A DNA stretch of 34,396 nucleotides from Bacteroidia bacterium (GCA_016779945.1 JADHMR010000011.1:1-34396); one strand, 5' to 3'; positions 5,723 to 25,998 are shown, counted from the first letter of the stretch. The notes: generated by a model not told the origin, from the sequence alone. Made by a program: numbers and translations.

Positions 5723-6565
5723 ATGAATACTTTTGCAGGAATACCGTCAGAATACGCCCAACTTAACACCTCCAAAGCGATTATAATACCCGTTCCGTAT
5801 GATGGCACGAGCACTTGGATGAAAGGAGCTGATAAGGGCCCACAAGCATTGCTCGAGGCAGCATTGTATATGGAGTTGTATGATATAGAAACACAGCAAG
5901 AAACGTATAAACATGGTATATATTTGTCAAAACCCATACCTATTTTAAGTAATCCAACACTAACCAACAACAATATCTATCGATTTACACAAAACCTACT
6001 TAAAGAAGATAAGTTATTAGCTTTTTTAGGAGGAGAACATTCTGTATCTATAGGAATTATACAGGCGTTCAAAAAAAAATATTCAGATTTGAGTGTGGTT
6101 CAGTTCGATGCTCATGCCGATTTAAGAGAAAGTTATGAGGACTCTGAATATAATCACGCTTGTGCCTTGCATTGGGCAAGCAAAAACACGGATTTGCATC
6201 AAATAGGAATCCGAAGTATGGATATTTCTGAAAAACAATGGATGAATCCCGATAAGGTGATATTTTCTCATCAACTTTCAGAAGACTACAATTGGCAAAA
6301 GTTGACCCAAAAGCTTCATGAAAAGGTCTATATTACTATTGATCTAGATGCCTTAGACCCAAGTATTATGCCAGCCACTGGAACCCCTGAACCAGGCGGG
6401 ATGAGTTGGCAACAACTCATAGGAGCAATAAAAGCTATTAGCCAAAACAAAACCATTGTTGGTTTTGATATTGTTGAGTTATGCCCAAGCCCTAATCATC
6501 AACACGCTAATTTTACGGCAGCAAAATTATTGTACAAAATATTAAGTTTCATTTTAAACAAATAA
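5723..6565 (+). CDS. speB: Agmatinase (agmatine ureohydrolase)
   Basis: 280 residues, normal for the arginase/ureohydrolase family. It hydrolyses agmatine to putrescine and urea with a dinuclear Mn centre. All metal-ligand motifs are present: GGEHS (H106), DAHAD (D129, H131, D133) and TIDLDALDP (D207, D209). TGTPEPGG (219-226) is also conserved, and H145 lies in the substrate loop. The gene starts one base after the arginine decarboxylase stop and ends one base before the next start. This order of decarboxylase, ureohydrolase and deoxyhypusine-synthase-like protein gives arginine, agmatine, putrescine and probably a longer polyamine. Formiminoglutamase or guanidinobutyrase activity cannot be excluded from motifs alone, but the operon favours agmatinase. 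Confidence 0.9.
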   Translation: MNTFAGIPSEYAQLNTSKAIIIPVPYDGTSTWMKGADKGPQALLEAALYMELYDIETQQETYKHGIYLSKPIPILSNPTLTNNNIYRFTQNLLKEDKLLAFLGGEHSVSIGIIQAFKKKYSDLSVVQFDAHADLRESYEDSEYNHACALHWASKNTDLHQIGIRSMDISEKQWMNPDKVIFSHQLSEDYNWQKLTQKLHEKVYITIDLDALDPSIMPATGTPEPGGMSWQQLIGAIKAISQNKTIVGFDIVELCPSPNHQHANFTAAKLLYKILSFILNK

Positions 6566-6566
6566 T

Positions 6567-7529
6567 ATGAGTATTAAGCAATTTATGACTACGCACTTTA
6601 AGCATTTTAATGCTGCATCAATAGTTGATGCCTCAAAGGGCTATGAAATGGCTTTGGCTAATGGAAATAAAATGATGATTACCCTTGCTGGGGCAATGAG
6701 TACGGCCGAAATAGGTATTTCTTTAGCTCAAATGATTCGCCAAGACAAAGTTCACATCATTTCTTGTACTGGTGCTAATATTGAAGAAGACATCATGAAT
6801 TTGGTTGCTCATGATTTTTACAAAAGAATTCCCAATTATAGAGACTTAACCCCTCTGCAAGAAGAAGAATTGCTTAGTCAAGGTCTAAACAGGGTAACCG
6901 ATACATGTATTCCTGAAGAAGAGGCTTTTAGAAGGATACAAACTCATATTTTCGAAATTTGGCAACAAGCTCATAGTGACGGTGTACGAAAGTTTCCTCA
7001 TGAGTTTATGTATGATCTTCTGATTTCTGGCAGTATGGAGCATTACTATCAAATCAACCCCGAAAACAGTTGGGTTTTGGCGGCTGCCGAAAAAGGAATT
7101 CCAATACTCGTGCCAGGATGGGAGGATAGTACCCTTGGAAACATTTTCACCTCATATTGTATTAAAGGCGATTTAAGCACTCACACTATGAAGTCGGGCA
7201 TTGAATATATGCAATGGTTTGCCAATTGGTACATCAATAATTCTCAAAATGGTATAGGTTTCTTTCAAATAGGAGGAGGCATTGCCGGAGATTTTCCTAT
7301 CTGTGTAGTGCCTATGTTGCATCAAGATTTGGAAATGGATGATGTGCCGTTATGGACTTATTTCTGTCAAATATCAGATTCTACCACAAGTTATGGATCC
7401 TATTCAGGAGCAGTACCCAATGAAAAAATTACTTGGGGTAAGTTGGGCGCACATACTCCAAAATTCATTATTGAGTCTGACGCTTCTATAGTTGCTCCTT
7501 TAGTCTTCGGCTGGATTTTAGATTTATAG
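6567..7529 (+). CDS. Deoxyhypusine-synthase-like protein (putative polyamine-forming enzyme)
   Basis: 320 residues. The family fold is clear: LAGAMSTAEIG (41-51) and SCTGANIEED (NAD-binding half), then the C-terminal half QIGGGIAGDFP (234-244), SDSTTSYGSYSGAVPNEKIT and WGKLGAHTPKFIIESDAS. True deoxyhypusine synthases use a lysine just after the GGG (human enzyme: GGG..K-H) to carry the aminobutyl group. Here that stretch reads GGGIAGDFPI, without lysine. Bacteria lack eIF5A, and some bacterial relatives are known to make homospermidine or similar polyamines. With arginine decarboxylase and agmatinase directly upstream, a role in using putrescine to form a longer polyamine is likely, but how it works without the lysine is unclear. 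The gene closes the operon; no terminator hairpin was found after it. Confidence 0.85.
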   Translation: MSIKQFMTTHFKHFNAASIVDASKGYEMALANGNKMMITLAGAMSTAEIGISLAQMIRQDKVHIISCTGANIEEDIMNLVAHDFYKRIPNYRDLTPLQEEELLSQGLNRVTDTCIPEEEAFRRIQTHIFEIWQQAHSDGVRKFPHEFMYDLLISGSMEHYYQINPENSWVLAAAEKGIPILVPGWEDSTLGNIFTSYCIKGDLSTHTMKSGIEYMQWFANWYINNSQNGIGFFQIGGGIAGDFPICVVPMLHQDLEMDDVPLWTYFCQISDSTTSYGSYSGAVPNEKITWGKLGAHTPKFIIESDASIVAPLVFGWILDL

Positions 7530-7570
7530 ATAGTGTGAACTTAATAATTTGTTTTTAAAACTAGTTAGAA

Positions 7571-7603
7571 ATAAGGTCATTTAGCTCCACCAAATCAGAA
7601 TAC
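7571..7603. repeat. 33-bp intergenic direct repeat, right copy
   Basis: Counterpart of 2911-2943, starting ATAAGGTCATTTAGCTCCAC and in the same orientation. It lies 41 bp after the stop of the last polyamine gene. The rest of the 7530-7726 gap is AT-rich and shows no other clear signal. Confidence 0.5.
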
Positions 7604-7726
7604 ATCTATTCATCTGATAGTTTCTATAACTTTACTTATTCGAATGATAGATTGCCTTTAGATAAATTAGTCAAACCAAAACAATTCTATTTAAATTTTT
7701 TATATTATAATTGAAAAAAAAAGAAA

Positions 7727-8287
7727 ATGAGTAAAATTTTAATAAATAGTTTTTTAATGATTAGTTTTTTTGCACATTCTCAAACTCATAGTATTGATGA
7801 ATTAGTCTTAAATTTATCTGATGATGCTAGTGTTTCAGATTTTTATGCAAATACTTTTTATAACGCTTATGATTCTGTTAATATAAGTTGGCAAATAATT
7901 GAAAGCGAAATGCCTGATCAATGGAGTTTTTCTAATTGTTTCCCAAATTGTTATAATCCTGGTGTTCTTAGTGGTGAAAGTAGTTTTCTGCCAAACACCC
8001 AACAGTATTTAAATTGTCATTTTTACCCGAACAATACATCTGGAACAGGGGTTGTCAAAATGGAAATAACAACTAATAGTCAATTTATTGATACTGTTAC
8101 ATGGATTGGTGTCGCTAATTCAACAAGTGCAATTAGTGAATTTATTCAAAATCAGACAATCAATAATAATAATATTACGATTTATGATTTGTCTGGCAAA
8201 AAATTAGAAAGATTACATGAAAATAAGCTTAATATTATTGTAGATCAAAATGGTATTATTGAAAAATATTTTTATGTGAATGAATAA
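7727..8287 (+). CDS. Small secreted protein with variant C-terminal sorting tail
   Basis: 186 residues. A signal peptide is visible at 1-18 (MSKILINSFLMISFFAHSQ). The middle part (NISWQIIESEMPDQWSFSNC, then a second Cys in FPNCYN) resembles a beta-sandwich segment seen in secreted Bacteroidota proteins: Trp, then 'P..W....C...C'. The last 38 residues (ITIYDLSGKKLERLHENKL, then DQNGIIEKYFYVNE) keep the IYDLSGK core of type A sorting domains and the acidic/basic ending of the tails at 1498 and 15146. No enzyme motif was seen. It is likely exported by T9SS. The gene stands alone between gaps of about 200 and 250 bp. Confidence 0.75.
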   Translation: MSKILINSFLMISFFAHSQTHSIDELVLNLSDDASVSDFYANTFYNAYDSVNISWQIIESEMPDQWSFSNCFPNCYNPGVLSGESSFLPNTQQYLNCHFYPNNTSGTGVVKMEITTNSQFIDTVTWIGVANSTSAISEFIQNQTINNNNITIYDLSGKKLERLHENKLNIIVDQNGIIEKYFYVNE

Positions 8288-16414: not shown

Positions 16415-16822
16415 TTAGGCAGTTCCTTTTTTAGAACCATAAAGCAATAAGCCCAATGCTGCTAGGTTAAACAAAATGACTGGTAGTGGTGCTGTTGGTT
16501 TTCCAGCAAATGCGTTGATAAGGTCTGGCAAAGCGAAAAAGCCCATAACGACAAACAATAGGAATGAAAGGCGTTTTAGAGCCGCTAAATCTTCGATTGA
16601 AGTGATACCAACCATCATAAAAAAGATGCCCAAAGCAACACAACCCAATACTAGCGCAAAGGTGTCAAACATAAGGTCTCCATCAGGACTTAAAGTTTCT
16701 ATACCAAAAGCATCAAGAATTAGAGCCGCTTTAACATCAGGCGAAATCATTGCACCCAATAGTGGTAATAACTGCAATAACATCAGCACAGCAGCTATCC
16801 AAAAAATAGTTTTTAATTTCAT
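16415..16822 (-). CDS. Small four-helix membrane protein, unknown
   Basis: 135 residues with four hydrophobic segments (about 5-25, 55-73, 82-100 and 112-130), ending in a short basic tail (YGSKKGTA). No known motif was recognised. It may be a host gene at the left edge of the accessory region. Codons close to its start (16785-16806) are duplicated at 25866-25887, at the other end of that region, which links this gene to the boundary. The start at 16822 follows an 86-bp AT-rich stretch. Confidence 0.75.
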   Translation of the reverse strand: MKLKTIFWIAAVLMLLQLLPLLGAMISPDVKAALILDAFGIETLSPDGDLMFDTFALVLGCVALGIFFMMVGITSIEDLAALKRLSFLLFVVMGFFALPDLINAFAGKPTAPLPVILFNLAALGLLLYGSKKGTA

Positions 16823-16953
16823 AATTTGATTAATTGAAAGGTTAATTTTCTCAAACCTAAGATTTTTTCAATTAAAATTCAAAGAAAGATTATGTTAATT
16901 AAATAGCACAATAAGCTCAGAAAACGAGCTTATTGTTTGTTGGATTGAAATCC
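16785..16953. repeat. Left copy of the repeat that bounds the accessory region
   Basis: Two segments here, 16785-16806 (inside the membrane-protein gene) and 16913-16953 (just downstream of the integrase), recur at 25866-25924 in the same order and orientation. In the right copy the 105 bp between them are missing, and they are joined at an A-run. The first segment is identical over 22 bp; the second matches except for a 3-base gap and one mismatch. Confidence 0.8.
16908..16936. terminator. Perfect 11-bp hairpin downstream of the integrase
   Basis: ACAATAAGCTC (16908-16918) pairs with GAGCTTATTGT (16926-16936) around a 7-base loop. It could end the integrase transcript, but the T-run after it on the minus strand is weak. 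A damaged version lies in the repeat copy at 25887-25902. Confidence 0.45.
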
Positions 16954-16979
16954 ATGTGCCTGAGATGGTATATGTTGTG

Positions 16980-17822
16980 CTACAAGTGGTCTAGCGGATT
17001 TGAAATGTTGTTTTTTGAGATTTTGGTTACGTGGGTGTATAGCTCTGTGGTCTTAATGGAATTATGCCCTAACAATTCTTGTACATATCTGATATTGATG
17101 CCGTTTTCGAGTTGGTGAGTGGCGTAGGAATGACGCAACATATGAGGGGTAACCGATTTTTGAATATTGGCTTTATGGGCATATTTTTTTATAAAACTCT
17201 GAATACTTTTGGCTGTATATTTTCCCCCACTTTGCCCTTCAAAAAGGTATTCTTTAGGAAGATATGCCAAATAGTATTGTCGAAGATTTTCGAGTAAAGT
17301 AAGAGGCAAGGGCAATACACGGTCTTTTTTGCCTTTGGCAGCACGAACCATAAGGCGCATGGCAGTAGAATCAATATCTGTAATTTTCAGGGCAATAACC
17401 TCTGATACTCGCAACCCACAGCCATAGAGAATTTTTAAAATGCATTCGTGTTTAAGGTTGGCACATTGTTGAAGCAGTCTTTTTACTTCAGAAACCGTTA
17501 AGTACTTAGGCAGTGGTTTGGCTTTGCGTTTGGGATAAAGCGGTGACAGATTTAGTTTACGCTTGTAGTAAAGCAAATAAAACTTGCTAATACTTGCCAA
17601 AATTTGCTTTTGATAGGTGGCACTAATGCTATCTTTTGTTTGCAAGTGATGTATAAAAGTTTGGATTTGTACTAGGCTTATGTGTTCCAAATCGTACTGC
17701 TGAAAGGCCACCAAAAATTTGGTAAGGGCGTTTTTGTAGGTTTTTATACTGGAAGAGGCATAGCGTTGTAAACGAAGTTTAACTTCAAAATCGGAAAGTA
17801 GCTTGTTGGTGTTGAAACACAT
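16980..17822 (-). CDS. Tyrosine recombinase resembling integron integrase
   Basis: 280 residues. The N-terminal SAM-like core-binding domain covers about 8-88, and the catalytic domain about 107-270. The catalytic set is R138 (GCGLRVSE), K163 (AAKGKKDR hairpin), H227 and R230 (TPHMLRHSYATH), H253 (LLGHNSIKTTE) and Y262 (LYTHV). The catalytic block and the ending NPLDHL closely resemble integron integrases (TPHTLRHSFAT, LLGH, YTHV, SPLDAL). IntI proteins carry an extra segment of some 20-40 residues before the H-x-x-R motif (the I2 patch region). Here only the short LFEGQSGGKYTAKSIQSF links the strands, so it is Xer-like in length. It is divergent from the cassette-like genes and probably acts on the hairpin sites downstream. 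An ordinary island integrase is the alternative. Confidence 0.9.
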   Translation of the reverse strand: MCFNTNKLLSDFEVKLRLQRYASSSIKTYKNALTKFLVAFQQYDLEHISLVQIQTFIHHLQTKDSISATYQKQILASISKFYLLYYKRKLNLSPLYPKRKAKPLPKYLTVSEVKRLLQQCANLKHECILKILYGCGLRVSEVIALKITDIDSTAMRLMVRAAKGKKDRVLPLPLTLLENLRQYYLAYLPKEYLFEGQSGGKYTAKSIQSFIKKYAHKANIQKSVTPHMLRHSYATHQLENGINIRYVQELLGHNSIKTTELYTHVTKISKNNISNPLDHL

Positions 17823-17951
17823 AACTTTCGCTTTAAGGAGATTAATATTTGCTATAAATATAGCCTATCTTATTGATTTACACAATAATAACCATGAAGT
17901 GCTAAAATGGATATACGAAACTCATAAAGATTGGATTTAAGCAATGCGTAT

Positions 17952-17970
17952 ATTTAGGTGTTAGCGGTAA
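17952..17970 (+). other. attI-like recombination point
   Basis: GTTAGCGG (17960-17967) lies about 138 bp upstream of the integrase start and 8 bp before the first cassette gene. It is the exact reverse complement of CCGCTAAC at 18619-18626, the start of the hairpin that closes the same unit. This is what a cassette inserted at G-TTRRRY-type ends should show. No hairpin surrounds it, as expected of attI rather than attC. Confidence 0.6.
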
Positions 17971-17974
17971 CTTA

Positions 17975-18601
17975 ATGAAACGACAGAACTACATATTCAT
18001 AATTTTGACAGCCTTACTTTTTGCCTGTACTTCAAATAAGGACAGAAAAGAAGACGCTGAAATAATCAAAACACAAGTTGCTGAACTAGACAATTCTCTC
18101 GAAAAAGAACCTGAAGAAAAGGAACTCAATGAAGATTTCGACTGTGTTCGTGGAAAAGCAGAACCTATCGTTAAGAGAGACATTTATCCCAACGGCAATT
18201 TTACACTACAATCCGACAGTTTAACTGCAATAGAAACAATAGAATTTGACTATGGCGAAAGAGTAATAATAAAGAATTGGGGCTGCGAATATTATGTTCT
18301 TTCATTTCGTTTTGAAACCTCAAAATACAATGCTGACACTACTGCAATGAAGTATTGGTATGTCAATAGTTCAAAAATTATGACAGAGCTTATCAAGGGA
18401 CTTGATGCTCCTCTTGACATTGAAAAAAGACTTGTAGCTTTAAATGACCACATTTCCAAAAATGTATTTGAGCTTGAAATAGGGACTGAAATTGACTACG
18501 GAGAAAACGAAATTAGAAGATTTGTTTCATTGGACAATATTGAGAAAATAGAGAAGAACCGATTTGCAGTGACAATTTCATTCGCACTCGGACCTTTATG
18601 A
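17975..18601 (+). CDS. Putative lipoprotein, unknown, first cassette gene
   Basis: 208 residues. The lipobox LFAC with Cys18 follows a basic/hydrophobic leader (MKRQNYIFIILTALLFACTS), so the product should be a lipoprotein. Residues 24-55 are charged and probably coiled or disordered (KEDAEIIKTQVAELDNSLEK). The rest is soluble alpha/beta with no motif I recognise (YGERVIIKNWGCEYYVLSF, NDHISKNVFELEIG). It fills a single-gene unit bounded by GTTAGCGG and the hairpin at 18619-18752, close to both ends, which is the compact form of an integron cassette. Its base composition resembles that of the next operon rather than the AT-rich host genes, judged by eye. Confidence 0.8.
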   Translation: MKRQNYIFIILTALLFACTSNKDRKEDAEIIKTQVAELDNSLEKEPEEKELNEDFDCVRGKAEPIVKRDIYPNGNFTLQSDSLTAIETIEFDYGERVIIKNWGCEYYVLSFRFETSKYNADTTAMKYWYVNSSKIMTELIKGLDAPLDIEKRLVALNDHISKNVFELEIGTEIDYGENEIRRFVSLDNIEKIEKNRFAVTISFALGPL

Positions 18602-18618
18602 ATAAAAAATAAAAGCAA

Positions 18619-18752
18619 CCGCTAACAATGGCTAAGAAAACATAGGGGTTGCAGTGCAGCCCGAAACGGTGGATTTCCTTACTTTGTTCTTGTCTCGGTC
18701 GACAAGAACGCAGCTCGAAATCCCCTACGTTTCTTAGCCGAGACCGTTACCT
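18619..18752 (+). other. attC-like hairpin site 1
   Basis: The order is: CCGCTAAC (18619-18626), AATG, stem GGCTAAGAAA (18630-18639), TAGGGG (18643-18648), inner stem GTTCTTGTC (18686-18694) with loop TCGGTC and GACAAGAAC (18701-18709), CCCCTA (18722-18727), TTTCTTAGCC (18730-18739), CGAGACC, GTTACC (GTT at 18746-18748). All stems are perfect, with ACA/CG as an unequal internal loop. AAC and GTT can pair at the base. This matches attC layout: conserved AAC/GTT triplets, a long stem, and bases left unpaired on one side. Confidence 0.7.
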
Positions 18753-18861
18753 GCAAGCTGAATCCAGCCGCACAGTCAAGCACATTTCATTTTGCTCGTA
18801 CCTCACAAAATAAAAAGAGCTTGCCCTTCCCCACCGACACCAAAACTGAATGATAATATTT

Positions 18862-18880
18862 ATACTCATTTAGTGAGTAT
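18862..18880. promoter_or_regulatory. Operator-like dyad upstream of the HTH controller gene
   Basis: ATACTCA-TTTAG-TGAGTAT is a perfect 7-bp inverted repeat ending 48 bp before the HTH gene start. Small HTH proteins placed in front of restriction-modification genes often autoregulate through such a dyad (C-box). The rest of 18753-18861 shows no reading frame and no other signal. Confidence 0.5.
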
Positions 18881-18928
18881 TTCTAGAAAACTTGCCTATC
18901 TTGGTGGACTGAATTAAACAGATTCAAA

Positions 18929-19138
18929 ATGAACCGAATTAAAGAGGTTTTGGACAGGAAAGGAATTAAGCAAATTTGGTTAGCTGAGCAATTGGGAAAG
19001 AGCTACAATATGGTTCACTCTTATGCTCAAAACAAAAGACAACCGAGTATAGACGACCTATACAAGATTGCCGAAATCCTAAATGTGGACATAAAAGAAT
19101 TGCTAGTTTCTAACAAGCCCGAACAAGACACTAAATGA
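18929..19138 (+). CDS. Small HTH (XRE/Cro-type) controller protein
   Basis: 69 residues, essentially one HTH_3 domain: KEVLDRKGIKQIWLAEQLGK, SYNMVHSYAQNKRQPSIDDL, YKIAEILNVDIKELLV. The size and position immediately before a methyltransferase gene (ATGA overlap of 4 bp) are those of restriction-modification controller (C) proteins. These proteins delay or balance expression of the restriction part after entry into a new host. The perfect dyad 48 bp upstream is the probable binding site. The identity as a controller is inference from context; the HTH itself is clear. Confidence 0.9.
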   Translation: MNRIKEVLDRKGIKQIWLAEQLGKSYNMVHSYAQNKRQPSIDDLYKIAEILNVDIKELLVSNKPEQDTK

Positions 19139-21837
19139 AATCAAGTGAGATAAAACATAACGTCCAAAACCTGATTGACAACTTCTCGAAAGATGAATTT
19201 GTCTTTGAGTTGTTGGTTGCCTACGGCATTTCAAAAACCTCTGTAACCAGACTAAAAAAAGGAGACTACAATTTATCCAAAGTTGATGGCGAAATACTTT
19301 ATAAGAAGAAAATCTTTTTTAAAGTTGAAGCAACTGACAAGTTGTTAAGCAGTATTGACACCATTACAAAAGAAGAGCGAATCTTAAAACACAAACCAAG
19401 ATTCGCAATTGTTACCGACTACAAACAAATTGTCGCAAAAGACCTTCAAAAAGGCAAAAACCTTGACGTCAATGTAAAAGAGCTACCAAACTATTTTGAC
19501 TTCTTTTTGCCTTTGGCAGGTAGTGAAGTTTATAATGCGAGCAACGACAATGAAGCGGACAGAAACGCTTCTTACAAAATGGCTTCTCTGTACGATTTGT
19601 TGATTGAGGAAAACCCGAACATCTACAATTCAAAGGAGAGCATTCACCACCTCAATATTTTCTTGTCTCGTTTGTTGTTTTGCTTTTTTGCTGAGGACAC
19701 TGAAATTTTCGAGCAAGACAGCATTTTCACAAATTCACTAGCTCAACATACCGCAGATAATGGCAGTGACACTCATACTTTTTTGGATGAATTGTTTGAC
19801 CGTTTAGACAGCAAAAGTGGAAAAGATTACCCGGACTTTTTAGCCAAATTCCCTTATGTGAATGGTGGTTTGTTTGGTCAAAAAATCAGTTCGCCAAGAT
19901 TTACTTCGAAAGCAAGAAAAACGCTCATTGAATTGGGCGAATTGCAATGGAAGGACATCAATCCTGACATTTTCGGTTCAATGATACAAGCAGTGGTAAT
20001 TCCCGATTACCGTAGCGATTTAGGAATGCACTACACTTCGGTAGCTAATATTCTTAAACTCATTAAACCGCTCTTTTTAGATGAACTATATGAGGAATTT
20101 GAAAATGCCACAACGGTAAAACAACTCAACGCACTCATTCAACGCATTTCAAAAATCAAGTTTTTTGACCCTGCCTGTGGAAGCGGAAATTTCTTGATTA
20201 TCACTTACAAAGAAATCCGTTTGTTGGAAATAAAGATTCTGCAAAAAATTACCGATTTAGAAACTACACCAACGTTCAAATGGACTTCTGTAAACCTCTC
20301 TCAGTTTTACGGTATTGAGATAGACGATTTTGCTCACGAAATGGCTATTCTCTCTCTTTGGTTGGCAGAACACCAAATGAACCGAGTGTTTGAAGAAATG
20401 CTTTTTGATTACGGTAAATCTAAACCAATACTACCACTCAAAGAAGCAGGACAAATACAACAAGGCAATGCCACAAGAAGAAATTGGAATGAGGTATGTC
20501 CTATTTCTGAAAAAGATGAAGTTTATGTAATTGGAAACCCGCCTTATTTGGGGTATAAAGGTTGGGATGCAGAGCAAAAAAAGGATATGTCAATTGTATT
20601 TAGCGGATTTAATACTGTTAACCGCTTAGATTATATAAGTTGTTGGTTTAAAAAAGGTGCTGATTATATAAGAGGAATGAATGCCAAACTTGCATTTGTT
20701 AGTACCAATTCAATATGTCAAGGAGAGCAAGTAAGTTTAATATGGCCATATATTCTTAAACACCTTGAAATTAACTTTGCTTATAATTCATTTAAATGGA
20801 CAAATAATGCAAAGGGAAGTGCAGGCGTCTCAGTTGTCGTTATTTCTTTACGAAACATAACCGAAAAGGAAAAGGTCATTTTCGATGGAAACTTTAAAAC
20901 TCTATCAAAAAACATCAATCCCTATTTAACTTCAGGTAGTAATATTTTCATTCAAAAAAGGGATACACCAATTTCAAATCTGCCAGAAATGGCACTTGGT
21001 AGTAGTGGAATAGATGGAGGGAACCTCATCTTATCTAAAAATGAGCGTGAAGATTTTTTCAAAATAGATTATTCCTCCAAAAAATTCATTAAAAAATTTG
21101 TGGGAGGAAATGATTTTTTAAATGGTGTTGAAAGATATTGTTTATGGATTGACGATGACAAAGTAGATGAAGCGTATAATATAAAACCTATTAAAGATAG
21201 AATTGATAAATGTGAAATATATAGATTAAATGCAGGACGCGATGCTCGTAAGGCAGCAGAAGTGCCACATAGATTTTTTTATAGAAAGTATCAAAGTGGC
21301 GAGTCAATAATAATTCCAATGACTAGTTCTTCAAATCGTAATTATATTCCTGTTGGTATTGAAGCAGATGGCTCAATATTAAGTAATGGAGTGTTCGTTA
21401 TTTATAATTTTTCACCTTACCACTTTGGCATCTTAAGTTCGAAGTTGCATTTGCTTTGGGCGAAAGCTGTTGGAGGTAAAATGAGAGAAGATATTAGGTA
21501 TTCTGTGAATTTAGTTTACAACACCTTCCCATTCCCCGACATTACCACCAAACAAAAGGAGAATTTGAATCAATACGTGTTTGATATTCTAGACGAGCGA
21601 GCCAAACATCCGAGCAAAACTATGGCTCAGTTGTACAACCCAACCACAATGCCCAAAGGCTTGTTGCAAGCCCATCAAGCACTTGACACTGCAATAGAGC
21701 AGTGTTACCGCTTGCAAGCTTTTAAAAATGATACCGAGCGTTTGGAGTATCTGTTTAAGCAGTATGAGGAAATACTACAAAAGGACACGCTGTTTGCCAA
21801 GCAGAAGAAAACAAGAAAAAAGACCGTCAAAAAATAA
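19135..21837 (+). CDS. MmeI-like/type IIG-type DNA adenine methyltransferase with specificity region
   Basis: 900 residues. The N-terminal part (1-135) ends in PNYFDFFLPLAGSE. A helical spacer (about 150-330) contains LSRLLFCFFAEDTEIF and YVNGGLFG. IFGSMIQAV, RSDLGMHYTSVANILK and FFDPACGSGNFLIIT (SAM-binding motif I at about 344-352) follow, then NPPY (468-471; adenine methylation motif IV). A target-recognition region covers about 590-800, and a C-terminal helical part covers the rest. The layout is that of MmeI-family single-chain restriction-methylation proteins. The N-terminal nuclease triad of MmeI (D..ExK) could not be found, so this protein probably only recognises and methylates. Cleavage may come from the GIY-YIG protein of the same operon. 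Confidence 0.85.
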   Translation: MKSSEIKHNVQNLIDNFSKDEFVFELLVAYGISKTSVTRLKKGDYNLSKVDGEILYKKKIFFKVEATDKLLSSIDTITKEERILKHKPRFAIVTDYKQIVAKDLQKGKNLDVNVKELPNYFDFFLPLAGSEVYNASNDNEADRNASYKMASLYDLLIEENPNIYNSKESIHHLNIFLSRLLFCFFAEDTEIFEQDSIFTNSLAQHTADNGSDTHTFLDELFDRLDSKSGKDYPDFLAKFPYVNGGLFGQKISSPRFTSKARKTLIELGELQWKDINPDIFGSMIQAVVIPDYRSDLGMHYTSVANILKLIKPLFLDELYEEFENATTVKQLNALIQRISKIKFFDPACGSGNFLIITYKEIRLLEIKILQKITDLETTPTFKWTSVNLSQFYGIEIDDFAHEMAILSLWLAEHQMNRVFEEMLFDYGKSKPILPLKEAGQIQQGNATRRNWNEVCPISEKDEVYVIGNPPYLGYKGWDAEQKKDMSIVFSGFNTVNRLDYISCWFKKGADYIRGMNAKLAFVSTNSICQGEQVSLIWPYILKHLEINFAYNSFKWTNNAKGSAGVSVVVISLRNITEKEKVIFDGNFKTLSKNINPYLTSGSNIFIQKRDTPISNLPEMALGSSGIDGGNLILSKNEREDFFKIDYSSKKFIKKFVGGNDFLNGVERYCLWIDDDKVDEAYNIKPIKDRIDKCEIYRLNAGRDARKAAEVPHRFFYRKYQSGESIIIPMTSSSNRNYIPVGIEADGSILSNGVFVIYNFSPYHFGILSSKLHLLWAKAVGGKMREDIRYSVNLVYNTFPFPDITTKQKENLNQYVFDILDERAKHPSKTMAQLYNPTTMPKGLLQAHQALDTAIEQCYRLQAFKNDTERLEYLFKQYEEILQKDTLFAKQKKTRKKTVKK

Positions 21838-21840
21838 GAT

Positions 21841-23805
21841 ATGCCAAATTTAGTACACGTAGAATACGACCAAACAGGAAAGAGCAAAAGCACCAACGCT
21901 CTTGGAATGCGGGAAATGCAAGAAAAGGCATACGAAGGCAGAACCGCACAATATTTATTATTGAAAGCACCACCGGCATCAGGAAAATCAAGAGCCCTAA
22001 TGTTTATCGCCTTGGATAAATTGAAAAACCAAGGCATCAAAAAAGTGATTGTTGCCGTTCCTGAAAAGTCTATTGGTGCATCTTTCGGTTCAACAGAATT
22101 GAAGAAGTATGGCTTCTTTGCAGATTGGAATCCAAATCCAAAATACAACCTCTGTACACCAGTAGAAGAAAAAAGTAAAGTAACGGCATTCTTGAATTTT
22201 TTAGAATCGGACGAGCAAATTTTGGTTTGTACGCACGCCACCTTACGATTTGCATTTGACGGTTTAGACCCTAAAAAGCTAGATGATACTTTGGTGGCAA
22301 TAGATGAATTTCACCACGTTTCAGCAGAAGGCGACAATATTTTAGGTCAGGTTTTGAAAAGCATTATGCACAATTCTACCGCTCACATTGTCGCAATGAC
22401 GGGTTCGTATTTTAGAGGCGATAGTATTCCTGTTTTGATGCCCGAAGATGAGGCGAAATTCACCAAAGTAACTTACACCTATTACCAACAGTTGAACGGC
22501 TATGAATTTTTAAAATCCTTGGGTATCGGGTATCATTTTTACACGGGCAAATACTTCAAGAAGCATCCCGAGAAAGAAATGTCGGCTTTGGCGGAGATTT
22601 TAGATGAAAATCAAAAAACCATCATTCACATTCCAAGTGTTAATTCAGCCGAATCATCGAAAGAAAAATACGAAGAAGTCAATCACATCATTGACGTTTT
22701 GGGAGAGTTGGAGTTTCAGGACGAAACCACAGGCGTGTTACACATCAAAAGCCACAAAACAGGCAGGATTTTAAAAGTTGCCGATTTGGTAAACGACAAT
22801 CCAAAATCAAGAGATAAAATAAGTGCCTACCTAAGAACTGTAAAATCAGCAGATGACATTGATATCATTATAGCTCTAGGAATGGCAAAAGAAGGTTTTG
22901 ATTGGCCGTACTGCCAACACGCTTTAACCATTGGTTACAGAGGTTCATTAACGGAGATTATCCAAATCATAGGAAGAGCGACAAGGGACAGCAACAACAA
23001 AACACACGCTCAGTTTACCAACCTCATTGCTCAACCAGATGCCGAAGATGAAGAAGTGAAATTGTCGGTGAACAATATGCTCAAAGCGATTACCGCTTCA
23101 CTATTGATGGAACAAGTATTGGCACCAAACTTCAAGTTTAAAATCAAAAAAGACGATGATGATGAAGACGAAGATGAGGACGATAAAACCATCAAAATAA
23201 GAGGTTTCAAATTACCTACTTCGCAAAGAGCCAAGGACATTATTGAAACAGACTTGAATGACTTGAAAGCTAAAATTCTTCAAGACCCTCAAATGCTCAA
23301 AGCAATGCCAGGGAATATTGAGCCAGAGGTTATCAATACCGTTTTAATTCCTAAAATCATTCGAGAAGTTTATCCTGATTTGGACGAAGAAGATGTTGAA
23401 GCAGTAAGACAGCACGTTGTTGTAGATTCTGTCATCAAGAACGGTACAATTGAGGAACAAGGCGACAAAAAATTCATCCGTATGGCAGGAAGCTTTGTGA
23501 ACATTGATGACATCCACATTGACTTAATTGACCAAGTAAATCCATTCCAAAAAGCATTTGAAATCTTATCAAAATCGGTAACAACTCAGGTTTTAAAGTT
23601 AATTGACGAGCATATTCAATCTACCAAAATTGAAATGACCGAAGAAGAAGCGATTTTGCTTTGGCCAAAAATCAAAGAATGGGTACAAAACAATAAAGGA
23701 GAGCAACCGAGTATTCAGGCTTTTGACCACAAGGAAAAAAGAATGGCAGAAGCACTAGTGTTTTTAAGAGAGTTGAAACGTAAAAAAGCACTTGAGAATG
23801 GCTAA
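21841..23805 (+). CDS. Superfamily 2 DEAD/DEAH-like helicase, restriction-associated
   Basis: 654 residues. Walker A is APPASGKS (43-50), motif II is DEFHH (155-159), motif III lies in MTGSYFRGD (186-194), and motif VI is QIIGRATRD (375-383), preceded by GMAKEGFDWPYCQHALTIG. After about residue 440 there is a run of aspartate and glutamate (KKDDDDEDEDEDDK), then a long helical C-terminal region. This architecture is found in the translocase subunits of restriction-type systems (ResIII-like). The gene follows the methyltransferase after 3 bp and overlaps the GIY-YIG gene by 8 bp. It would supply ATP-driven DNA movement for a multi-subunit defence complex. The acidic run may contact a partner or mimic DNA; that part is speculative. 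Confidence 0.88.
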   Translation: MPNLVHVEYDQTGKSKSTNALGMREMQEKAYEGRTAQYLLLKAPPASGKSRALMFIALDKLKNQGIKKVIVAVPEKSIGASFGSTELKKYGFFADWNPNPKYNLCTPVEEKSKVTAFLNFLESDEQILVCTHATLRFAFDGLDPKKLDDTLVAIDEFHHVSAEGDNILGQVLKSIMHNSTAHIVAMTGSYFRGDSIPVLMPEDEAKFTKVTYTYYQQLNGYEFLKSLGIGYHFYTGKYFKKHPEKEMSALAEILDENQKTIIHIPSVNSAESSKEKYEEVNHIIDVLGELEFQDETTGVLHIKSHKTGRILKVADLVNDNPKSRDKISAYLRTVKSADDIDIIIALGMAKEGFDWPYCQHALTIGYRGSLTEIIQIIGRATRDSNNKTHAQFTNLIAQPDAEDEEVKLSVNNMLKAITASLLMEQVLAPNFKFKIKKDDDDEDEDEDDKTIKIRGFKLPTSQRAKDIIETDLNDLKAKILQDPQMLKAMPGNIEPEVINTVLIPKIIREVYPDLDEEDVEAVRQHVVVDSVIKNGTIEEQGDKKFIRMAGSFVNIDDIHIDLIDQVNPFQKAFEILSKSVTTQVLKLIDEHIQSTKIEMTEEEAILLWPKIKEWVQNNKGEQPSIQAFDHKEKRMAEALVFLRELKRKKALENG

Positions 23806-25006
23806 GAAGAAACTAACCATAGACGACATTTTCAATGATGATGATTTTGGATTGTTAGATTCTAAGGTCAAGACTTCAACTGTAAAAACGGATGAAGAAA
23901 GGCTAATTGACTCCTTTGAAGAAATCAATGTTTTTATTGACAAAAACGATAGAGAACCCAATAAATCAAGTATGTCTGAATATGGTTTAATGGCTAAACT
24001 CAAAAACTTTAGGGATAATGAGGACCAGAAAAAAATCCTCAAACCTTTTGACAGGCATAATTTATTAGGTCACGTAGAAATGGAAAAGCAATCCATTGAT
24101 GACATTTTCAATGATGATGATTTGGGCTTGTTAGATCCTGACAAGGATTTAGATATTTTCAAATTCAAACATACGCCCAGACCAGAAGACCGAGCAGAAG
24201 CCGATTTTGTAGCTCAAAGAAAACCAATGAAGGAAAAGGACTTTGAGAAGTATGAGAAAATGTTCTTGCAAGTTCACAAGGAAATTAAAGAAGGAAAACG
24301 AAAGATTAAGCCGTTTACCAATATCGAAAAAAATCTTCACGTTGGAGATTTCTACTTAATGAATGGCATTATGCTCTACTTAGAATCAGCCAACTTGAAA
24401 AAGGATGAAGTTGACCTCAGTTCAGGTAATCGTGTAAGAGTTGAAGGACGAACAAGGACAGTTTTTGAAAATGGCACTTACAGCAATATGCTTTATCGCT
24501 CGTTAGGTAAACAAATCCAAAAAGACGGTAAGCTTATTACCAACACTTATGACAAAATTGAACAGGACTTATTCATCAATTCAGGACTTGTAAAAGAAGA
24601 AGATATTCAGTCAGGTTGGATTTACGTTTTGAAAACAAAGTCAACTAAAAAGGAACTTTCAGGAATTAAGGATTTGTACAAAATCGGATTTGCAAGTGGT
24701 TCAGTTGACGATAGAATAAAAAATGCCAAAAACGAAGCGACCTATTTGTTTGCAGACGTCAAGAAAATAGCAACTTACAAGGTTTACAATCGGAATGCGG
24801 ACAAACTTGAAAATCTTTTGCATAGATTTTTCGCCAAAGCTTGCTTGGACATTGACTTATACAATGAACAAGGACAAAGACTGAATCCAAGAGAATGGTT
24901 TGTTGTTCCTTTTGAGGTCATCGAAGAAACCATCCAATTGATTTTAAATGAGAATATTGTGAATTACGAATACGACACAGAAACGAAAAGAATTAAACTG
25001 AAATAG
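23798..25006 (+). CDS. GIY-YIG nuclease family protein with duplicated N-terminal motif
   Basis: 402 residues from the ATG at 23798; a TTG at 23792 would add two residues. It overlaps the helicase stop by 8 bp. Residues 272-385 form a T5orf172-type GIY-YIG domain: GWIYVLKT (273-280), LYKIGFAS (293-300), R306 and E338 (DKLENLLHRFF), ending in NPREWFVVPFEV. The N-terminal half is charged and contains the motif IDDIFNDDD.GLLD twice (residues 8-21 and 100-113), probably docking peptides. The domain is the likely nuclease of the operon, cutting DNA located by the helicase and methyltransferase. A structural or signalling role is possible, because the motifs are of the YKIG variant. Confidence 0.85.
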   Translation: MAKKKLTIDDIFNDDDFGLLDSKVKTSTVKTDEERLIDSFEEINVFIDKNDREPNKSSMSEYGLMAKLKNFRDNEDQKKILKPFDRHNLLGHVEMEKQSIDDIFNDDDLGLLDPDKDLDIFKFKHTPRPEDRAEADFVAQRKPMKEKDFEKYEKMFLQVHKEIKEGKRKIKPFTNIEKNLHVGDFYLMNGIMLYLESANLKKDEVDLSSGNRVRVEGRTRTVFENGTYSNMLYRSLGKQIQKDGKLITNTYDKIEQDLFINSGLVKEEDIQSGWIYVLKTKSTKKELSGIKDLYKIGFASGSVDDRIKNAKNEATYLFADVKKIATYKVYNRNADKLENLLHRFFAKACLDIDLYNEQGQRLNPREWFVVPFEVIEETIQLILNENIVNYEYDTETKRIKLK

Positions 25007-25087
25007 AATAATGCCAACGCTGCAACCAAAAATTGCAAAAGAGTATGTCTTTGCCAACGCTGACGGACTGAAAAATAAAAAGTACGA

Positions 25088-25221
25088 CCGCACAACAATG
25101 TGTATAAGCAATAGCGGGTTTAGTGCTAAATTGAAACGTAAAACTATAAATCAAAGGTCGGTGCTATCTGACAGTTTAGTGGCTTGAAATCCGCTACTGC
25201 TCATACACGAGACCGTTATGT
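25088..25221 (+). other. attC-like hairpin site 2
   Basis: AAC (25094-25096), AAT, left stem GTGTATAAGCAATAGCGG (25100-25117), long loop, right stem CCGCTACTGCTCATACAC (25191-25208), CGAGACC, then GTT (25215-25217). The stem is 18 bp with two A.C mismatches, which become T.G wobbles on the bottom strand. That is the strand recombined in integrons. It shares AACAATG, ATAG(G/C)GG, GAAATCC(G/C)CTAC and CGAGACCGTTA with site 1, while the outer stem sequence is different. The gap 25007-25243 holds nothing else recognisable. Confidence 0.7.
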
Positions 25222-25243
25222 ATGATTATTAAAACATGAAAAA

Positions 25244-25867
25244 ATGATACATCCAAATACTGAATTAAAGTTTATCAGCAATGAAGTGGGATATGGAGTT
25301 GTCGCAACTCAATTTATCCCTGCTGGAACAATTACTTGGGTTCTTGATAAGTTAGACAGGGTATTTAGCCCAGTAGAATTCCAAAATATGGAATCTCTCT
25401 ATCAAGAAATTCTTGACACCTACACTTTCCGAAACAATGAAGGTAATTTAGTGCTCTGTTGGGATAACGGTAGGTTTTTAAACCATAGTTTCAATTCAAA
25501 TTGTCTTACAACCGCATACGATTTTGAAATAGCAATTCGAGATATTCAAGTGGGATAACAACTGACTGATGACTACGGATACCTGAACATTTCTAACCCT
25601 TTTAGGGGAATTGACGAAGGCACCAAAAGAAAAATAGTATATCCAAATGACTTGGTAAAGTATCATACAATTTGGGATAAAAAAATAAAAAAGGTCTTTC
25701 CTAAAATAACTAAAGTCAATCAACCTCTAAGGTCATTATTGAATGAAGAAACTTGGAATAGAATCGAAAGAATTTTGAGAGGAGAAGAAATTATGGAATC
25801 CATTTTGGCAAATTACTTTGATGAAAAAAACCACATGCAACAAAATGCAAAACGACAGGAACATTAG
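25244..25867 (+). pseudogene. SET-domain protein-lysine methyltransferase-like gene with in-frame stop
   Basis: The first 104 codons encode the beginning of a SET domain: GYGVVATQFIPAGTITWV and GRFLNHSFNSNC (the N-H-S substrate/SAM pocket). A TAA at 25556-25558 then interrupts the frame. The same frame continues with QLTDDYGYLNISNPF and on to a stop at 25865-25867, giving about 207 codons. The canonical text at this point is 'GEELT.DYG', so a single GAA-to-TAA change would explain the break. SET proteins of this small type methylate lysines on proteins using SAM. The gene follows hairpin site 2 and probably was a cassette gene. Its stop codon overlaps the duplicated boundary segment. Confidence 0.8.
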
Positions 25868-25924
25868 CACAGCAGCTATCCAAAAAAAGCTCAGAAAAGC
25901 TTATTTTTTGTTGGATTGAAATCC
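25862..25924. repeat. Right, deleted copy of the integrase-side boundary sequence
   Basis: 25866-25887 equals 16785-16806, part of the membrane-protein gene. It joins through an A-run straight into a copy of 16913-16953, with three bases lost and one changed. The 105 bp that separate them on the left are gone. The junction has A-tract microhomology. Confidence 0.8.
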
Positions 25925-25935
25925 CTATATTTAGA

Positions 25936-25998
25936 GTATATTTAAAGCCGAAAACGTAGTGCGTAAAACCCGCTAAATTTAATATATATACCGTTGTA
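25936..25998 (+). other. attC-like hairpin site 3, degenerate
   Basis: The right half keeps the family pattern: TAGTGCGTAAAACCCGCTA (25957-25975) aligns with TAGTGGCTTGAAATCCGCTA of site 2, and ATACC-GTT (GTT at 25993-25995) ends it. The left half is poor: TATATTTAAAGCCG pairs only partly, and no AACAATG is present. The duplicated boundary segment lies just where the left half should be. Confidence 0.45.

Follow-up and report, generated by a model that had tools for sequence, protein, structure and literature searches.

The window analyzed here, a stretch of 34,396 nucleotides that makes up the whole of contig C24 in a Bacteroidia bacterium genome (2.24 Mb, 144 contigs), very probably carries a chromosomal integron-type array, in which a tyrosine recombinase without the additional domain of IntI would take attC hairpins from the bottom strand and insert cassettes at attI; the enzyme would represent a second lineage of integron integrases, and the later units of the window would have lost their sites. 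By mechanism the system is an integron, and its integrase lies outside the IntI family. On a wider scale we consider it likely that a second integron lineage extends through the phylum. Its integrase would have lost, or never possessed, a domain held to be required for attC recombination; its attC type would be distinct and free of extrahelical bases; it would be the principal integron in the window's class; and tet(X) would have become a mobile cassette by way of it. The first-pass annotation had described an integron-like capture system with a recombinase that falls outside the usual IntI length class; that description is supported by recurrent hairpins, variable cargo and exact junctions at GTT. 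Features of the window and the tet(X) loci are given in Table 1.

Table 1. Positions of the integrase, sites, cassettes and genes of the window, and of the tet(X) loci
Feature	Position	Strand	Remarks
Integrase gene, 280-aa tyrosine recombinase	16980-17822	minus	frame intact, no IntI additional domain
attI region	17823-17967	plus	insertion point GTTAGCGG at 17960-17967; conserved up to GTT with L026 and L028
Cassette 1	17961-18746	plus	ends match, GTTAGCGG / CCGCTAAC
Cassette 1 gene, 208 aa	17975-18601	plus	lipoprotein-like N-terminus, no known domain
attC 1	18619-18753	plus	hairpin; R'' CCGCTAAC, R' GTTACCTG
Unit 2	18747-25215	plus	ends mismatched, GTTACCTG / CGCACAAC; probably fused cassettes
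Small HTH regulator, 69 aa	18929-19138	plus	
MmeI-type (type IIG/IIL) restriction-modification enzyme, 900 aa	19135-21837	plus	
DEAD/ResIII helicase, 654 aa	21841-23805	plus	
T5orf172/MUG113 (GIY-YIG-like) protein, 402 aa	23798-25006	plus	
attC 2	25089-25222	plus	hairpin; R'' CGCACAAC, R' GTTATGTA
Unit 3	25216-25850	plus	without own attC; SET-domain gene at 25244-25558
Degenerate copy of integrase 3' flank	25860-25924		right edge of region
tet(X) loci	L091 4364-4498; L092 4364-4498 and 2870-3005; L074 about 6028-8150		Proteus/Bacteroides plasmids, Acinetobacter

The integrase and its attI region

The minus-strand tyrosine recombinase noticed at first reading was confirmed, and the motifs HxLR (H227, R230), LGH (H253) and LYTH (Y262) are all found in it. 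The protein, P0001, scores 232 bits against NF040815 (XerA/integron integrase) and passes the cut-off of 220; against TIGR02249 (integron integrase) it scores 205 bits, below the cut-off of 265, in a match split in two (profile positions 2-176 and about 239-315). With the XerC model TIGR02224 and the XerD model TIGR02225 it reaches 179 and 193 bits, where the cut-offs are 335 and 330, and the two best other hits in the same genome are separate 307-aa frames. Alignment to the Vibrio cholerae integrase 2a3v (residues 16-186 with 13-182 and 207-279 with 247-319) leaves about 44 residues absent, and alignment beside canonical IntI proteins and IntI1 identifies this gap as the IntI additional domain (about 44-60 residues), which is absent from all of the recombinases of this kind that were examined. 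Integrons are defined by an integrase carrying the IntI-specific additional domain (PMC9668308, PMC2426708); because that domain was looked for in the integrase and is absent, the system stands outside the usual definition. A statement attributed to Messier and Roy in a passage of PMC2426708, that the additional domain is needed for the activity of known IntI, counts against a domain-less integron integrase. IntI forms one supported clade in the integrase tree, in which the outgroup consists of two Xer rows only; an AlphaFold model built from three sequences had a pLDDT of 40 and was set aside.

The integrase at locus L026 is 83% identical to that of the window, and no relative was found in the viral contigs searched. 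Integrases of the window type occupy one chromosomal site in four Flavobacteriaceae MAGs (L026 3311-5055, and the same place in L027 to L029), next to a UmuC-type (SOS) polymerase gene and 2-oxoglutarate dehydrogenase genes. Many of the integrases that have the same orientation as their cassettes (L036, L041, L044, L049) carry about 60-100 additional N-terminal residues ahead of the recombinase domain.

The attI-like sequence originally placed about 138 bp from the integrase is indeed there: GTTAGCGG (17960) lies 138 bp from the gene and is the exact reverse complement of CCGCTAAC (18619), so the matching ends described for the first unit also stand. The attI partner 8-mer of the first attC is 74-152 bp from the integrase at 12 of 15 loci, the window included; it is kilobases away in L032 and L028 and absent in L033. 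Thus, as in integrons, an attI is found beside the integrase with cassettes joined at G^TT.

Comparison of loci shows how exact the attI/attC junctions are. The window and L026 are 84% identical over 262 bp, and the alignment stops at GTT. On contig C1 of genome G018, a distance of about 1 Mb separates two copies of the integrase (L043 and L044), each with its own array and 99% identical over 1.2 kb; to the left of GTT, 600 of 600 bases are the same, and the right sides share just the GTT. At L028 one piece of DNA is found behind attC in one place and behind a second attI in the other, with an exact switch at GTT, which, judged from the junction itself, is a natural recombination product. Homology between loci therefore ends exactly at the attI GTT, and the single-block insertion that the first-pass annotation had named as the contrary outcome is not seen. 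Two further observations concern these loci: the attI and the start of the integrase gene are duplicated in L028 (4769-4976 and 9861-10068, 94%, about 5 kb apart), the second attI copy having a different cassette start behind it; and 84-nt short hairpins framed TCACCAAC...GTTGGTGA are present in both the L043 and L044 arrays.

Hairpin sites and the cassette-end rule

Long hairpins framed by AAC and ACC-GTT had been reported after successive units. Two of these hold (Table 1) and belong to one structural family, framed AAC...GAGACC-GTT; the third, at about 25868-25998, was not detected by the covariance model with filters off, and its fold (z of -1.16) is like that of shuffled sequences; the degenerate copy of the integrase 3' flank occupies this stretch instead. 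The geometry common to the sites starts with AAC and a short unpaired segment, followed by an arm about 18 bp long that an A.C mismatch interrupts; after a variable loop come the second arm of the stem and a 5-6-nt spacer ending in CC before GTT. Scanning by this geometry found the same structure near relatives of the window integrase. Hairpins 1 and 2 score 92.9 and 114 bits with the covariance model (R1), although both are in its training set, which holds 12 more hairpins from other loci. The exact 10-mer GAGACCGTTA has three matches genome-wide, of which the third is within a coding frame, so this motif is by itself uninformative.

Over the 14 sites, 94% of the named pairs are standard, and there are 68 double-change cells in the true pairing versus 5-14 when the partner column is slid by 1-3. 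The A.C mismatch is a fixed feature of the stem (A in 89 and C in 88 of 91 sites) and becomes a G.T pair on the bottom strand, which is the more stable fold in 75 of 86 sites (p of about 2e-13). Comparison of the sites thus shows an attC conserved in secondary structure with the bottom strand favored, and in known integrons it is the bottom strand that is recombined. Known attC stems also have bulged extrahelical bases; no bulged column is present in the consensus of the 91 sites. Model R1 has no match in the aadA2 class 1 integron, and a search of Rfam gave no match. A second kind of hairpin, TTCCCAAC-GGCC-AGCTCGGCTTCGCC..., occurs in three copies among cassettes on a Chryseobacterium plasmid (L075 12934-17545), where its left end matches a preceding GTTGGGAA.

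Because the sites were first chosen for their pairing, the cassette rule and the attI junctions serve as independent tests of them. The rule, that the R' and R'' outer boxes at the two ends of one cassette are complementary, was examined in 68 pairs of neighboring sites separated by less than 6 kb, taken from model R1 with a few geometry hits and including one pair from L026. All five variable positions are exact reverse complements in 43 of the 68 pairs, where 1.9% is expected at random, and at least four of the five match in 52; none of 10,000 permutations reaches the observed matching. The two ends within one hairpin match barely above random, and the model pairs bases within a hairpin, not across neighbors, so the rule is no product of the model. 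By this comparison the arrays follow the integron rule, as does cassette 1 of the window perfectly; units 2 and 3 do not.

The rule-obeying cassettes (n = 52) have a median length of 808 bp, and their 49 ORFs fall into 40 unrelated clusters. They are thus variable and mainly unrelated one-gene cassettes, as in integrons and as anticipated for cargo between hairpin copies near this integrase family. One cassette of about 3.3 kb is common to two genera at 92.7% identity with different neighbors, a comparison that establishes sharing between genera. A different type of array is seen at L057 (contig C44 of G034), in which at least 13 sites lie in 9 kb, many at a spacing of about 410 bp, and the ORFs are tiny and related (40-77 aa), forming a dense array of near-identical small cassettes.

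If instead the hairpins were terminators or REP-like or MITE-like repeats, and the integrase belonged to an ordinary one-block island, long hairpins behind genes would be expected, and the degenerate direct repeats at both flanks of the window (16779-16953 and 25860-25924) would fit. Terminators and MITEs, however, yield no complementarity between the ends of neighboring sites, and an island gives no account of the exact GTT junctions at the integrase; we regard this explanation as extremely improbable. The direct repeats themselves bracket the region, and the right copy, which is 96% identical to 16779-16806 and 87% to 16907-16953, fuses pieces that about 100 bp separate in the left copy.

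Within the window, the main genes are on the plus strand, as first described. The cassette-strand partner 8-mers CAGGTAAC, GTTGTGCG and TACATAAC were sought for GTTACCTG, CGCACAAC and GTTATGTA, respectively, and none was found, in agreement with the early observation that later units break end complementarity. Of the proposal that the defense operon is cargo, its location between two attC sites stands; its unit has mismatched ends, so it has been fused or eroded and is not established as one cassette. That the window holds just two sites, and that two of its three units violate the end rule, is a point against the integron reading; the likeliest explanation is that units 2 and 3 are fused cassettes from which the intervening sites were lost. 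More attC sites are present in the same genome, close to where two other contigs, C29 and C22, end, so the array may extend beyond contig C24. No empty or filled strain-level version of the window locus was found, and the adjoining carbonic anhydrase gene is without a close orthologue in most members of the genus.

The mismatched ends, together with the broken integrase frames in the related copies L028 and L029, would also suit a window copy that is a dead remnant, in which nothing has moved for long and to which the R-M operon came by another route. We consider this somewhat unlikely, since the integrase frame and motifs of the window are intact, its attI is conserved and cassette 1 is perfect. 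It touches only present activity and not the identity of the system, and so overlaps with the integron-type array that we favor, which may well be active in this genome today.

Distribution in Bacteroidota and tet(X) as a probable cassette

Sites of the R1 type are present in 27 of the 38 genomes of the window's family. Across the Bacteroidota they occur in at least 180 of 395 genomes, a minimum figure given the small number of candidates scored in each; phylum and class membership was assigned by kinship, and it is through these relatives that the window is placed in the Bacteroidota. The search that had been suggested at the outset thus shows the hairpins widely in the phylum, and they recur beside this integrase family. 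No canonical IntI was found in the 38 family genomes, and in the window's class just one is over the cut-off (G144). The domain-less enzyme was found in 49 genomes of the class in addition to the window's, and R1 sites are present in 46 of these 49; the proposed second integrase lineage would be dominant in this class. Comparison also shows that integrase and sites are linked: of the 34 integrases with a listed attC on their contig, 26 lie no more than 30 kb from one. At all 26 the sites point away from the integrase, 19 having the same orientation as the integrase gene and seven being divergent like the window.

One could suppose that the hairpins are integron sites and the domain-less recombinase a bystander, with a canonical IntI or XerC/XerD acting in trans. 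Other tyrosine recombinases do occur in these genomes, canonical IntI is present in 105 of the 395 genomes of the phylum, and some arrays have no listed integrase nearby; indeed 22 of the 68 attC-positive genomes of the class lack a listed integrase, so a second enzyme is possible. The scarcity of canonical IntI in the window's family and class, the closeness of attI to the domain-less gene at 12 of 15 loci and the uniform direction of the 26 arrays nevertheless make the bystander role very unlikely, and we infer that the domain-less recombinase itself catalyzes the exchange.

Plasmids carry relatives of the system. TnpF, encoded beside tet(X3), is 46% identical to P0001 and also domain-less. 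A complete R1 attC follows tet(X) on a Proteus mirabilis plasmid (74.8 bits) and on a Bacteroides fragilis plasmid (72.5 bits), and the two plasmids are 92.6% alike across tet(X) and attC and divergent from GTT on. This attC opens with CACATAAC, and its partner GTTATGTG precedes tet(X3) in Acinetobacter, where half an attC of R1 type comes after the gene. With a complete attC and the partner GTTATGTG, tet(X) shows every structural element of a cassette. The mobility of tet(X) in Acinetobacter has been ascribed to ISCR2 (PMC7722449), in a paper from which the word "integron" is absent. On a Flagellimonas plasmid (L076 9900-10743) a gene of the dihydrofolate reductase family lies between two attC sites with matching ends (ATGCCAAC / GTTGGCAT); this cassette adjoins erm(F) and a domain-less integrase.

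Proposed mechanism and comparison with known systems

We propose that the 280-aa recombinase recognizes attC in the form of bottom-strand hairpins and would act on single-stranded DNA. The attI, which lies 138 bp upstream of the integrase gene, would receive circular cassettes at its G^TT, and these would be read away from the integrase. Cassette 1 of the window would be intact, and the units of the R-M operon and the SET protein would have lost the sites between them. An enzyme acting like IntI without the additional domain would constitute the second lineage of integron integrases.

If this is true, much of the gene-capture machinery of the phylum has been overlooked. In an earlier survey, the IntI domain or patch was the criterion by which integrases were chosen (PMC2426708). 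IntegronFinder 2.0 names only Salinibacter ruber as having a complete integron within the Bacteroidetes (PMC9024848). Integron recombination could not depend on the additional domain in general, the last-line tigecycline resistance determinant tet(X) would be a cassette of this system, and a domain-free enzyme would offer a simple system for studying the recognition of folded single-stranded sites. No description of such a system was found in the searchable literature, which lies outside most subscription journals and all bioRxiv preprints.

The system shares with chromosomal integrons an integrase, an attI and an array of mainly one-gene cassettes, the G^TT insertion point, R'/R'' end complementarity, and hairpins kept in structure more than in sequence with the bottom strand favored; the window also has the usual divergent orientation of the integrase. 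It differs from them in that the integrase is missing the additional domain of IntI and does not reach the cut-off of TIGR02249, the sites have a fixed A.C mismatch and no bulged extrahelical base in the consensus, and many relatives have the integrase co-oriented with the cassettes. The window enzyme resembles XerA, XerC and XerD in length, domains and catalytic motifs, and is over the NF040815 cut-off (232 vs 220); unlike XerC and XerD, it is far under the cut-offs of their models, is not single-copy, and is tied to attI and attC arrays. The sites differ from those of XerCD/dif modules, in which short dif-like XerC/XerD sites flank the genes; here they are mostly hairpins of about 134 nt with variable ends and one direction per array. 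The TnpF/tet(X3) unit of Acinetobacter differs in having a truncated attC and, according to PMC7722449, in moving by ISCR2, but the TnpF/XerD-like recombinase of such ISCR2 units is domain-less and 46% identical to that of the window, with GTTATGTG before tet(X3) and half an attC after it.
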